IMG/VR virus record: IMGVR_UViG_3300046459_000436
Location: 1-64,000 of that record
Direction: 5' to 3' (one strand)
DNA length: 64,000 bases
DNA from: a virus
Every line of letters starts with the position of its first letter. The first letter of the stretch is position 1. Both the position numbers and the translations under genes were made by a program. Under the pieces are notes generated by a model. That model ran no database searches. It was not told the origin of the DNA and was given only the letters and a program-made list of their open reading frames with translations. Shown here in pieces: positions 1,470-18,652 of this stretch.

Positions 1470-4400
1470 TCAGTACGCGAAGGCGGTGGAGTCGAACGCC
1501 GAGGAGGCGTCGTAGGTGGTGGGGTCGGTGACGCCCGTCGGGAGGGGTTCACAGACGATGTCGCCGATGGCGTGGGTGTGAACGGTCGTACCGGTGAGGG
1601 TGATGACTGCGGTCGTCCAGCCAGGTGAGGTGGCGCCGACGCTGAGGATGGTGACGGTCTCTTGGTGCACCGAGTCGCCCATGCTGAGGACGATGGACTG
1701 TCCGGGGCCGAGTTGGGCGGCCAGCGGGTTGGTGTTGTCGGCGCTGGCGTTGACGGTGATCGTGCTGGCGCCGACGGACACGGCCGCGTTGAGCGTGGCG
1801 TGCCAGGCGGCGAAGAGCGCGTAGGGGGTGAGGTCGGCGGGCGAGCACTGGAGGGTCTGGAAGGCTTCGCCGTCGTCGCCGAAGTCCCAGGCGATGTTTT
1901 CGACGAAGCATTCGACCTGGGTGGCCGGCACGTTGGGTGCGCGGCGCATGATGCGGACGCGGGTGCCGAGCTCCAGGGCGAGACAGACGGGCCACATCGC
2001 GGGGTTCGCCGACGGGTGGAGCTTGATGGAACTGACTCGGGTGGCCGGGTTCTTGTAGCGGCTGAGCAGGTAGTTCGCTGCATCCTGACATTCCAGGGCG
2101 CTGCTGGAGTTGACCGTTCTGCTCATGGTGCGGGGGAAGAAGTTGGCGAGGGATGTCGCATCCGTGGCGTAGAACGCCTGGGACGTGGACTCCTGCGTGA
2201 CGGTGACCTGGTTCGACAGGTGGGTGCTGTCGAAGTCCAGGCTGACGTCCTCGTAGGGCCATTCGCCGGATGAGGTGTTCTCCCCGAAGGTGTAGGCGGG
2301 GGTGGTGGCGTTGTAGCGGGCGGACCGGGAGCGGAATGTGACTGTCCCGGCCCGGTTGACGAAGTGTTCGCCCGCCTCGGTGTCCACTACGGCCTGGAGG
2401 GCGCTGACGGCGTCCTGGCCGTCGATGGCCGCGGGTCCCATGGAGGTGGTGAGGCCGGTCTGTACGGAGCTCGGGCCGGTGTACCCGGAGTAGCGCAGGA
2501 TGCGGGCGTAGCGGGCCGCGCTAGAGTCCCCGGCGCAGGCGGAGCGCCAGGCCGTGTACAGGTTGGTGACGGTCGTGGAGCCGAGGAACGACGGGAATTC
2601 GGCGACGAATGAGATGTCGCCCTTGAAATTGAGGATGGTGCCGTTGCCGACGGTGGGGTCCACGTAGGTGCCGACGTTGTCGCTGATCAGCCCAGATGGG
2701 GCGGTGTTCGCCGCGCTGATGTAGGAGTAGACAACCCCGTCGAGGGCGATGAAGGTGGCCGTGGCGGTCGGGTCGAATCCGAAGATGACCAGGTGCCAGT
2801 CGCCGTCGCACACGTTGGTCGTGCCGGCTACTCGGGAGCCTCCCGCTCCCGTGGGGCCCGCCGACGCGAACTGGACGTACCCGGTGGCGCCGATAGTGAG
2901 GAGGAGGTCCGATCCCGCAGGGACGCCGAGGGCGCGCTGGTTGTCGAATCCCGACCAGAGCACAGCGCTGTTGGCCGGGACCGCTCCTCCCGTGTAGCGG
3001 AAGGCGATCATGCGCGTCCAGATGGTTGTCGCCGGGCCGAGGATGCCGGTCGAGCCGAGGCTGATGAACGTTGCTGCGCTGATCGTGTTGGTGCCCGGGT
3101 TGGCGTTGTTGAGCCTGGCGACAGTGCCGGAGCTGCCCGCGTAGGTGCCACCGGCGTCGTTCGCGGCGATCGCGTTGCCGAAGGTCAGGCTGCCCGCACC
3201 GTACTTGGAGGTGGCGAGCTGCGCGGCCAGGTAGGTGCCGGTGGTGTCCGATACGGACGTGGAGCCCGACGGGTCGTCGAGCTTGAACAGGAACCGCGGC
3301 GAGAGGGTGCTGATCTCCTGGGTGAGGGGGTCCGACAGGGTCTTCTGTGACAGCAGACTGAAGGCGTCCACGGCCGACGGGACGACCTTGCCGTAGGTGC
3401 CGGACATGTCCCAGGTCGACGGCCACCGCTCCATGAACCCTGCGTAAACCGGGTTCCACAGACCAGGGCAGGCCCACGCTGACGCGGTGGAGCCCTTCTC
3501 CAGTTGCCAGCCGTCGACCTGCAGCGAACATGTGGCCGCTGCCGACGATGCGAGGGCCACGCCCACGTCGATGCCCGCCGCGTTACTGGGGGCGGTCGCG
3601 GTGACCGTGATGGTCGTCCACGCGGCCGTCGTCGAGCCCGTCAGGGACGCCGACGAGCCGTAGGTGAACGACGTCGGTGTCGAGCCGCCGCCCGCGGTGT
3701 ACCAGCCGAGGAACGCCTGCACGCTCAGGCTCGTGGATGCGGTGACGTCCCGCACCCGCAGCTGCACCGTGTACGTCTGCCCCGGGATGACGCTGAACCG
3801 GGGCGTGTGGCAGGCGCGCGACGCCGACGCGGACCCGTTCGGCACCGCGAACTGCATGACCATGCCGCCAGCCCACGCCGTGGCGGTAGCGACGAACGAG
3901 CCGCCCGAGGTGTCGGTCGAGGAGAAGATGTCCGCGCCCGCCGAGCCAGATGGGATCGTGCCCGCCGAGTAGCCGCCCAGGTCGCCGCCCGTGGCGTGGA
4001 CCTGGTCCAGGAGGTTGCGGGTCGGCGGCCACTGTGCCCGGCGTCGGTACGGCTGGTACGGCTGAATGTGCCCGTACCAGGGCCCGGAGGCGTTGACCGG
4101 GTCGAGGGCGGCGTCCGTGTTGGCGAGCGTGAGGTTGGCCTCGCCGGAGCGCACCTGGTCCGTCTCGTACTGACGGCCGCGCGACGTCCCCATCGACCCG
4201 CGGGTTCGGTCGGAGACCTCCACGTAACGGTCGAGCGGCGAGTCGCCCGCGTTGGCGTTCCAGTACGGTGCCCACGCATCCTCGATGGTCGGCCAGTTCA
4301 GGTTGAAGGGGCCGCCGAGCATGGTGTTGACGTGCTGGATCGTGGCAGCGTTGCCTGCGGCTTCGGTCCCGCCGGCGCTGGTCTGGAACAGGAACTGCAT

Positions 4401-16501: not shown

Positions 16502-17494
16502 TCAGGTGAACCAGTTGGCGAAGTGAGCCAGCGAGACGTCAGCCGCAGGTACGCAGCGGCAAACGGGGTGGCTTGGCATTAGGGGGAAGTCGGTGATCGG
16601 CCACGGGCTGCCCGCCTCGTTGTCGATGCACGTAGGACAGACGCGGCCATCTCCCGCAGTGAGCCACGAGACGCTCTGCACGCCTTCGGATTGGTACAGC
16701 GACAGGGCGCCTTGGTCGGCGGCGGTGGTCATGGCCCAGTCGACAATGAACGCGACTGATTCCACGTCCGTGCCGGTGAGGACGTTCATCGCGTCCTCAA
16801 TCATCTGGTCGCGGCTGGCACCGTCCTCGGCCCCTTGCGCGAGTATCCGACCGAGGTCTGCCGCGGCCCGGTCGATAGTGCGGCCGAGCCAGCCGCCCGT
16901 GTCCGCCCAGATCTCGTCGAGGCGTTCCAGGGACTGGTAGGCGTCGCCGAAGGCGATGTTCCAGTCGAGGCCGATCCGGTTGGCGCGTTCGGCGGCGATG
17001 GCGACCGCGTTGACCATGCCCTCCGCCCGGCCGGCTGCGATGGCATTCCTCAGCGCGGTGCGCAGGGCATCCCATCCGGCGCCGGCTGCGTCGGCGATTG
17101 CGTGCAGCATGGCTTTGGCGGCTTCGAGTGCTTCAGTGCGGATGCTGGGCTTGCCGTGGTCGGCTTCGGTGAGTCCGGCCTGCTGCCGGAACCGGTCAAC
17201 CACGGCGGCGACCGCGTCCCGGCCGATGAGGTCGCGCCACGCATCGGCCACGAATGGTACGTGCTTGGCCTGCTGCTCCTCGCGGCGTTGGAACAGTAGC
17301 GCCCACATGCCTTCGAGCTTGCCGAGGTCGATGGTGACTTCGAGGATGCGCGGGTCGTCAGCGTGCTCGATGGCGAGCGCCACGGCTGCGGTGGAAGCGC
17401 GCCGCACGCGGTTCGTCATCGGCCCCCCGGAGACGGCCCAGCCTGCAGCGAACGCCTCGCGGGCGAAGCCCTCAATGGGGTGCGGCATGGGCAC
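16502..17494 (-). CDS. Mu gpF-like minor head protein
   Basis: A 330-residue helical protein with the C-terminal signature of Mu gpF / SPP1 gp7-type head morphogenesis proteins: DGRVCPTCIDNEAG followed by PLMPSHPVCRC, a Cys/His cluster near residues 290-320. These proteins join the procapsid with the portal and may enter the cell with the DNA. It stands two genes upstream of the protease in transcription order. The gap to the portal has been filled by the GIY-YIG/antitoxin insertion. Confidence 0.85.
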   Translation of the reverse strand: MPMPHPIEGFAREAFAAGWAVSGGPMTNRVRRASTAAVALAIEHADDPRILEVTIDLGKLEGMWALLFQRREEQQAKHVPFVADAWRDLIGRDAVAAVVDRFRQQAGLTEADHGKPSIRTEALEAAKAMLHAIADAAGAGWDALRTALRNAIAAGRAEGMVNAVAIAAERANRIGLDWNIAFGDAYQSLERLDEIWADTGGWLGRTIDRAAADLGRILAQGAEDGASRDQMIEDAMNVLTGTDVESVAFIVDWAMTTAADQGALSLYQSEGVQSVSWLTAGDGRVCPTCIDNEAGSPWPITDFPLMPSHPVCRCVPAADVSLAHFANWFT

Positions 17495-17540: not shown

Positions 17541-18320
17541 TCATGGCTTCTGAGGCGAAGCCTGCCTCCGGGCTCGCGCCCGCTCCCGCAGGCAGGTTCG
17601 GCACTTGCGGCTGGGAGTCTTGCCATTACCGCTTCGCTCGATCACGGTATTTGCCTCGTCATAGGGGTGACCCTGAGGGCAGTGTGTCTTCCGCCCTGGC
17701 CGCCCCTGTGCGCGCCACTCTGCCCACCACTTTCGTTTCGCCTCTGCGACCTTCGCCCGCGAGGACGCGTTGGTCATCGGCTGAAGTGCGCGCGCCTTGG
17801 CTGCTTTGCTCAGCTTGCCCCGGGTCTCGTCCGAGGTGATGCTTCCCGCCGCTCGCCAGTCTGCCCAGCGTTTCGTCGTGGCCTCCGAGACCGCCTTCCG
17901 TGTGTTCGCTGGAATCGTCTTGCCCTTGTGCACGCGACTGACGGCCTGGCGCCGGACGGGGTCTTTCATCCGTTCGAGGGCGGCCTGCCGAATCCGCTCT
18001 CGGGTTTCGGGGGATGCGATGCGCCCCAGGGTTCCAGGGCCGCCATCAGTCGCGTTGGTCAGGCGAGCGCCCTGAGCTCTGTACGTGGTGATCCATCGCC
18101 GCTCGGCTTCTCCGTGGCTCTCGATCGGAACGATCTCAATCTCCGTCATGACTGGCGAGACACCGACTTTGAGCAATGAGCGGATCCACCGGCTCTTGTA
18201 GTCCTGGCGCCCAGTATCGGAGATGTGCCCTCGAAGCCGCTCGGCGAGCGAGCGTGTTGTGACCCCGACGTAGCGAACTTCACCGTTACGAGGGTCACTC
18301 AACGTGTAGATCCAGGCCAT
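17541..18320 (-). CDS. GIY-YIG homing endonuclease
   Basis: A 259-residue free-standing nuclease. The catalytic domain is at the N-terminus: WIYTLSDPRNGEVRYVGVT (GIY and YIG equivalents), then LAERLRGHIS and the later ERRWITTYRAQG with the essential Glu region. Two NUMOD3-like DNA-binding repeats follow (SPETRERIRQAALERM; SDETRGKLSKAAKAR), then a Cys/His finger (CPQGHPYD ... CRTC). It cuts a homing site, presumably in the gpF-portal interval of related phages lacking it. I chose the ATG before AWIY; two more in-frame ATGs lie upstream within an operator. It faces away from a YefM-like gene. Confidence 0.85.
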   Translation of the reverse strand: MAWIYTLSDPRNGEVRYVGVTTRSLAERLRGHISDTGRQDYKSRWIRSLLKVGVSPVMTEIEIVPIESHGEAERRWITTYRAQGARLTNATDGGPGTLGRIASPETRERIRQAALERMKDPVRRQAVSRVHKGKTIPANTRKAVSEATTKRWADWRAAGSITSDETRGKLSKAAKARALQPMTNASSRAKVAEAKRKWWAEWRAQGRPGRKTHCPQGHPYDEANTVIERSGNGKTPSRKCRTCLRERARARRQASPQKP

Positions 18321-18335
18321 CCGCTCATGCACGTC

Positions 18336-18355
18336 CATGTACATCAATGTACATG
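18336..18355. promoter_or_regulatory. Palindromic operator with two TGTACA cores
   Basis: A perfect inverted repeat: CATGTACAT, then CA, then ATGTACATG. It holds two TGTACA hexamers with centres 10 bp apart. TGTACA is the core known to be bound by E. coli YefM at the yefM-yoeB operator. It lies between the divergent nuclease and YefM-like genes, overlapping the alternative ATG codons of the nuclease and the probable -35 region of the antitoxin gene. Confidence 0.75.
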
Positions 18356-18375
18356 AGTGGCTCTCTCTGTACTCT
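18348..18375 (+). promoter_or_regulatory. Probable leaderless promoter of the YefM-like gene
   Basis: TGTACA (-35, four of six matches to TTGACA) is followed after 16 bp by TACTCT (-10, TANNNT form). The ATG is six bases past the -10 box, which points to a leaderless transcript, common in Streptomyces. The -35 box is itself half of the palindromic operator, so binding there should block transcription. Confidence 0.5.
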
Positions 18376-18381
18376 GGCGTT

Positions 18382-18576
18382 ATGAAGGAAGAACCAGTCG
18401 AGATGAGTACCGCTGAAGTTCGCACGAACCTTGCGGACGTGGTCAACGCGGCAGTCCGAAACCGGATCACTTTCGTGACCAGTCGCGGGCGCCGCGTGGC
18501 GGCGGTTGTCCCGCTATCCATCGCCGAGGAGGCAGTGGAACGCGAAGACGGGGGCCCTAGCCGACCCGCTTCTTGA
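18382..18576 (+). CDS. YefM/Phd-like antitoxin
   Basis: A 64-residue protein with the Phd/YefM N-terminal DNA-binding pattern: STAEVRTNLADVVNAAVRNR, then ITFVTSRGRRVAAVVPL. These proteins bind their own operator and a toxin (RelE, YoeB or Doc families). Here no toxin gene follows; the divergent neighbour is a GIY-YIG nuclease. It is the only plus-strand gene inside the late operon. The 3' end overlaps the microgene after the portal by 20 bases. It may control the nuclease, or be left from a toxin-antitoxin pair carried in with it. Confidence 0.8.
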   Translation: MKEEPVEMSTAEVRTNLADVVNAAVRNRITFVTSRGRRVAAVVPLSIAEEAVEREDGGPSRPAS

Positions 18577-18652
18577 TGAGCGGCAGCACATCCTTGGCGC
18601 GCAGCGGATGGTTCGGAGGATCGGGCGGCAGCGGTTCAGGCGGCACGCTCAT
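18557..18652 (-). CDS. 31-residue microprotein after the portal gene
   Basis: A 31-codon frame with ATG seven bases after GGAGG, starting inside the last codons of the portal gene. The sequence is Pro-rich and then basic (PLRAKDVLPLIKKRVG). The strong ribosome binding site and tight overlap argue that it is translated. Function unknown; it is overlapped at its 3' end by the antitoxin gene on the other strand. Confidence 0.5.
   Translation of the reverse strand: MSVPPEPLPPDPPNHPLRAKDVLPLIKKRVG

Follow-up and report, generated by a model that had tools for sequence, protein, structure and literature searches.

Why would a phage carry an antitoxin-like gene that has no toxin beside it, placed head to head with a nuclease gene? 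The question is raised by a locus in IMG/VR virus record IMGVR_UViG_3300046459_000436, of which we analyzed positions 1-64,000 (the window, part of an 80.7-kb record). A preliminary description of this DNA had noticed a GIY-YIG homing nuclease gene and, on the other strand, a Phd/YefM gene, inserted between a gpF-like gene and the portal gene. Both were found there, divergently oriented on the minus and plus strands, with starts that we have refined. Comparison of the locus with its relatives suggests that the pair is quite likely a toxin-independent repressor module controlling a selfish nuclease, and not a toxin-antitoxin pair. The features involved are the following (aa, amino acids; L002 is a sister phage).

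17541-18320, minus strand: GIY-YIG nuclease gene, presumed free-standing homing endonuclease; 259 aa, MAWIYTLSDPRNGEVRYVGVTT...; PF01541, E 7e-7
18382-18576, plus strand: tail-less Phd/YefM-like protein, presumed repressor; 64 aa; PF02604, E ~1e-5, residues 9-46
18336-18355, unstranded: paired TGTACA operator core CATGTACAT-CA-ATGTACATG, two perfect 9-bp arms, asymmetric CA centre
18328-18333, unstranded: degenerate operator site '-10', TGCACG; TGTACA in L002
18338-18343, unstranded: predicted operator site '0', TGTACA; unchanged in L002
18348-18353, unstranded: predicted operator site '+10', TGTACA; TGTACC in L002; overlaps the presumed nuclease -10
18368-18373, unstranded: predicted operator site '+30', TGTACT; invariant in L002; overlaps the presumed Phd -10
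18351-18346, minus strand: presumed nuclease -10, TACATT; TANNNT match; TACACT in L002
18370-18375, plus strand: presumed Phd -10, TACTCT; TANNNT match

The nuclease gene probably starts at 18320 (MAWIYTL), because both the conservation with L002 and the GIY-YIG domain begin at this point; its open reading frame reaches 18521 only with the first in-frame ATG. The Phd gene probably starts at ATG 18382 (MKEEPVEM) rather than at 18337, since the MKEEPVEM start is common to L002, and its mRNA is probably leaderless, the ATG lying ~7 nucleotides past TACTCT. The intergenic region is 62 bp long and aligns without gaps between the window and L002.

This region holds an array of TGTACA-type sites. The arrangement TGTACA-N4-TGTACA occurs once in the 64 kb and in 0 of 100 dinucleotide shuffles. 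Measured from the Phd ATG, the window sites lie at -44, -34, and -14 (TGTACA, TGTACA, and TGTACT); L002 has an extra TGTACA at -54, where the window reads TGCACG, and both the middle site and the block CTCTGTACTCTGGCGT downstream of it are conserved between the two. The preliminary description had seen here a perfect 20-bp palindrome with two TGTACA cores. The two cores and the perfect 9-bp arms stand, but the CA centre is asymmetric and the array is larger. Through the N-terminal domain, YefM and Axe recognize pairs of TGTACA palindromes that cover their own promoters, and the TGTACA cores of the yefM-yoeB and axe-txe operators are spaced 12 bp centre to centre (PMC7730913). Paired TGTACA cores over a promoter are found in the window as well, the promoter overlap being read from the TANNNT matches, but the spacing is 10 bp in both the window and its relatives. 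The TGTACA core thus appears to be common to the YefM/Axe operators and this array, with a different spacing.

The protein presumed to read these sites appears to retain the DNA-binding fold of its family without the toxin-binding tail. In antitoxins of the Phd fold, the N-terminus binds DNA and the C-terminus binds toxins (PMC4803016). The window protein matches PF02604 over the DNA-binding N-terminal half, all 24 members of our aligned set match the same family (best E 1e-12), and the predicted fold is helix-strand-strand-helix (predicted local distance difference test, pLDDT, 73). The window protein and its relatives are 57-64 aa long, with 6-14 variable residues beyond the IAEEA/IAEKA segment, while long-tailed Phd antitoxins from the same survey reach ~89 aa. 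As had been described, the gene has no toxin gene for company: none flanks the pair, and profiles of the ParE/RelE, YoeB, and Fic/Doc families gave zero matches in the 80.7-kb record. Two hallmarks of a type II toxin-antitoxin system, an adjacent cognate toxin gene and a C-terminal toxin-binding tail on the antitoxin, are therefore absent.

The closest relatives of this protein were mostly found beside a second kind of nuclease. TnpB is an RNA-guided RuvC-type nuclease, to which GIY-YIG enzymes are unrelated. A profile of the tail-less Phd, run over 299 genomes of one actinobacterial family (that of G056, which shares members with that of G001, a Streptosporangiaceae metagenome-assembled genome), returned a compact top group whose divergent gene mostly encodes TnpB (OrfB_IS605, Cas12f1-like_TNB), the exceptions being L118 and L119. 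Tail-less Phd is divergent from TnpB in L110/L162, L112/L168, L113/L187, L115/L177, and L116; the TnpB is intact in L110, L112, L113, L115, and L116 and partial or decayed in several other loci. Two viral contigs (L148 and L161) likewise have the same Phd subfamily divergent from TnpB. In a weakly resolved tree (17 of 24 forks open), the window Phd stands beside TnpB-linked viral Phds at 86/100, a placement that is only suggestive.

The TGTACA sites of the TnpB-linked relatives occupy the same positions 0, +10, and +30, sometimes in degenerate form, and cover both presumed promoters. They lie at -45, -35, and -15 from the Phd ATG in L110, L112, L115, and L116; the corresponding distances are -44, -34, and -14 in L119 and -43, -33, and -23 in the GIY operons. 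The spacing is 10, 20, or 30 bp in 56 of the 74 site pairs counted across 20 loci, versus 0.1 in shuffles. We also fetched 30 TnpB loci (75-100% identical) by similarity to the TnpB of L110. A divergent tail-less Phd is present in 4 of the 30, and an exact TGTACA within 100 bp in exactly those 4; the odds of such a coincidence are 1 in 27,405 if the loci are independent, which is not quite so. In many other TnpB loci, the Phd position is occupied by a TnpA-like gene (HLVFVTKFRH...). A search of open-licence PubMed Central for TnpB with 'prevent-host-death' returned no paper, and a tail-less Phd divergent from TnpB with a putative TGTACA array over shared promoters appears to have no description in that collection.

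Other small DNA-binding-like proteins were seen divergent from TnpB in L164, L175, L176, L178, and L189. L164 has a different short Phd with GTTCCGTCACGGAAC, L176 has a ribbon-helix-helix-like protein with TGACACCACTGTAGTGTCA, and the set includes possible Phd remnants. TnpB may have acquired repressors of the antitoxin type on more than one occasion.

Phd relatives also accompany other GIY-YIG genes. A Phd gene lies upstream of a small, co-directional GIY-YIG gene in viral contigs L150-L152, L154, L155, and L160, the genome loci L193 and L194 show the same order, and in L156 (2716-3159) the two are fused, both Pfam domains falling within one 148-aa open reading frame. These co-directional and fused loci sit on contigs resembling actinobacterial prophages or integrative elements. 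A Phd-like domain ends several of the co-directional GIY-YIG proteins (E 2e-11 in L194, weaker in L155 and L154); the window nuclease itself has no Phd domain. Among 72,556 plasmids, the sole match was a Phd divergent from GIY-YIG on Streptomyces plasmid pSITFR-21c (L074), with sites 23 bp apart and a dissimilar Phd (39% identity); we regard this pair as an apparently analogous or distant case, independent of the phage pair. Phage GenBank records held no Phd relative at E 0.01, and up to E 10 just tape-measure or unrelated proteins, so the viral evidence rests on IMG/VR. The survey of GIY-YIG genes for divergent Phd/YefM neighbours that the preliminary description had proposed thus yielded few cases of that exact layout (the window, one sister phage, and one Streptomyces plasmid), but it brought out co-directional and fused GIY-YIG/Phd forms and the divergent TnpB/Phd pairs.

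Two candidate pairs were rejected. In L075/L118 (1250-1750), a Phd domain ~63% identical to that of the window carries a long C-terminal extension, with one GTGTACAC upstream; L075 was not counted as a nuclease-paired case because of this extension and an ordinary neighbour. The Phd of pSTRVI02 is divergent from an 'endonuclease domain' protein that resembles a tyrosine recombinase, with no TGTACA between the two.

The place of the pair in sister phages was examined in 21 loci gathered through their portal genes. The slot and the nuclease are described by three further features.

16502-17494, minus strand: gpF-like head gene, other border of the slot; weak PF04233 match; most of the 21 portal-matched loci have an orthologue
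18557-18652, minus strand: small conserved phage gene edging the insertion; 31 aa, MSVPPEPLPPDPPNHPLRAKDV...; adjoins the portal gene in sister phages with or without the cassette
17586-17690, minus strand: zinc-ribbon-like C-terminal segment of the nuclease, CPQGHPYDEANT...RKCRTC; residues ~211-245; common to many other actinophage nucleases

The 3' ends of the 31-aa gene and the Phd gene overlap by 20 bp. Between the 31-aa gene and gpF, the slot is nearly empty (20-36 bp) in L054, L057, L059, L061, L063, and L064, and the GIY-YIG/Phd pair fills it in the window and in the identical contigs L052 and L053 but in none of the other loci. L044-L047 have a portal 98-99% identical to that of the window yet no pair, so the cassette was gained or lost recently on the phage time scale. 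Between the window and L002, the nuclease is 82% identical in aa sequence with a ratio of nonsynonymous to synonymous substitution (dN/dS) of 0.07, and Phd is 88% identical with a dN/dS of 0.13, compared with 0.20 for the portal and 0.33 for gpF. Purifying selection acts on nuclease and Phd no less strongly than on portal and gpF. The mosaic slot, like the link to TnpB, goes beyond what had been foreseen.

The slot holds other material elsewhere. In most other sister phages (L044-L051, L055, and L062), a frame that begins upstream of gpF and continues into it looks like a 2H phosphoesterase (2'-5' RNA ligase), a reading of the sequence with no profile match; this domain is missing from the gpF of the window. 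L058 (5780-6679) has an HNH-like nuclease with three CPQGHxYxExNT zinc-ribbon repeats, a ribbon that is common to the GIY-YIG protein of the window. A different gene is affected in L056 (~2052-3248), where an in-frame stretch of ~400 codons splits the terminase gene and resembles an intein that contains an endonuclease of LAGLIDADG type (CYDAKMEI..., LFDSLIDGDG).

The nuclease scores 29.9 bits against the GIY-YIG family of Pfam, above the cut-off of 22.6, and residues Y5, Y17, G19, R28, E71/E73, and N89 are invariant across four divergent homologues. Its gene occupies a site that stands empty in related genomes, as homing endonuclease genes do, and it is presumed to be a free-standing homing endonuclease. 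Of the 37 viral loci recovered, most have just the C-terminal zinc-ribbon segment in common with it; neither these loci nor the distant GIY-YIG relatives used as a control have such a Phd alongside.

How, then, might the cassette work? We propose that it is a mobile nuclease with its own switch. Phd would act as a toxin-independent dimeric repressor that binds the TGTACA sites spaced 10 bp apart between the two genes and, when bound, shuts both its own promoter and the divergent GIY-YIG promoter. The nuclease would then be made mainly on entry into a repressor-free cell, or once the repressor level drops, and the harm done to the carrier genome would be limited afterwards. In this scheme, the DNA binding, the repression of both promoters, the nuclease activity, and the benefit of timing are the parts that we infer. 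Repression by Phd alone is the simplest reading because the N-terminus is kept, the C-terminus is gone, the partner switches between two unrelated nucleases, and the operator geometry stays. Of the two roles that had been suggested for the protein, restraint of the nuclease by a recruited antitoxin fold is well supported by comparison, through the tail-less Phd, the same operator geometry in relatives, and the repeated pairing with selfish nucleases. In a wider form, for which we see about even chances, the tail-less Phd and its 10-bp operator array would form a portable unit that controls selfish nucleases independently of any toxin. Unrelated enzymes would have acquired it on at least two occasions (GIY-YIG homing nucleases, and TnpB, where it replaces TnpA), and in actinobacterial mobile elements it would have been fused into the nuclease as a DNA-binding domain.

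Known systems resemble the pair in part. The C (controller) proteins of restriction-modification systems are small dedicated regulators that time the expression of a dangerous nuclease, but they have a helix-turn-helix fold, and the window pair has no methyltransferase. A subset of IS200/IS605-type TnpB elements has TnpB divergent from a tail-less Phd in the place of TnpA, with the same operator geometry, although TnpB is an RNA-guided RuvC-type enzyme and not a GIY-YIG nuclease. YefM-YoeB and Axe-Txe share the Phd/YefM N-terminal DNA-binding domain and the paired TGTACA cores over the promoter (PMC7730913; PMC4803016), whereas here there is neither toxin gene nor tail, a divergent nuclease replaces the downstream RNase toxin, and the spacing is 10 bp instead of 12 bp. 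Phd-Doc of phage P1 is likewise a case of a Phd-fold DNA-binding protein borne by a phage, but the window record has no Doc/Fic gene and the protein no neutralising C-terminus. The closest functional precedent seems to be I-TevI among the T4 homing endonucleases, a phage GIY-YIG homing nuclease restrained by a repressor site over its promoter; I-TevI, however, represses its own promoter itself (PMC2988022), while the putative repressor here is a separate protein of antitoxin fold. The earlier statement that no such pair had been described agrees with our search for GIY-YIG and YefM in open-licence PubMed Central, which gave one unrelated cyanophage genome.

Several observations weigh against control of the nuclease by Phd. 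The Phd match to PhdYeFM_antitox (PF02604) is ~25 bits, under the whole-protein cut-off of 29.8, because just the N-terminal half is present; the best PDB match of its model is weak (2odk, a prevent-host-death protein, E 0.71), and a direct PDB sequence search gave no match. The array does not extend to the nuclease start at 18320, and the nuclease promoter is placed by a TANNNT match. Only two distinct sequences of the phage pair are known, as the contigs behind L002 and L003 are identical, and locus counts exceed the number of independent events owing to relatedness. Most of the sampled TnpB loci have no such Phd, nor do the distant GIY-YIG relatives, and L075, L083, L119, L149, L153, and L157 are Phd relatives without a recognisable nuclease neighbour, so that the Phd-nuclease association appears frequent and not absolute.

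Two other explanations are kept, at lower weight, in view of the operon-like and fused arrangements seen on prophage-like contigs. Phd could be a targeting partner that directs the GIY-YIG enzyme to sites resembling TGTACA, or the two could form a complex that cuts as well as autoregulates, like the one-chain I-TevI. The fusion in L156 and the Phd-like C-terminal domains of co-directional GIY-YIG proteins, such as that of L194, speak for this, but the window nuclease, which lacks a Phd domain, comes with a zinc-ribbon-like segment of its own, and so has no obvious need of a partner, and the RNA-guided TnpB needs none; we consider this explanation unlikely, even with I-TevI using one DNA-binding domain for both homing and autorepression (PMC2988022). 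The preliminary description had also offered the nuclease as the 'toxin' of a type II pair. The divergent layout would then be a rearranged toxin-antitoxin operon and the cassette addictive, with Phd binding and neutralising the GIY-YIG protein, much as Phd proteins classically neutralise toxins via the C-terminus (PMC4803016), and the same subfamily does lie directly upstream of co-directional GIY-YIG genes in the fashion of such operons. That C-terminal tail, however, is missing or cut to 6-20 non-conserved residues, and the same subfamily also pairs with TnpB, whose fold is not that of GIY-YIG, a pairing that direct neutralisation of the protein does not easily explain; the idea does not hold up well and is rather improbable.

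Still less is to be said for two explanations that deny any tie between the genes. Antitoxins encoded by phages have been suggested to act against the toxin-antitoxin systems of the host (YefM and MazE of S-CREM1, PMC9964418), and Phd could be an orphan antitoxin shielding the phage from such a defence, its place beside a nuclease being incidental. The protein has no toxin-binding tail, though, its conserved array is shared with the nuclease, and the subfamily recurs beside nucleases, not alone, which makes this very unlikely. Chance neighbourhood, with two unrelated passengers in a slot that varies among sister phages and takes different cargo, and with a functionless short repeat, has hardly any likelihood, as both genes and the sites are conserved, the pairing recurs in independent elements, and the TnpB-linked relatives share the operator geometry.

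How free-standing homing genes and TnpB elements are restrained is poorly known, though selfish nucleases endanger the genome that carries them. If the proposed repression by Phd is true, a small nuclease-borne repressor that reads a simple TGTACA array and serves two unrelated classes of enzyme would be a general answer, and antitoxin folds would perform a job unrelated to toxins. Genes annotated as 'orphan antitoxins' in phages and actinobacterial mobile elements may then be regulators of nucleases.
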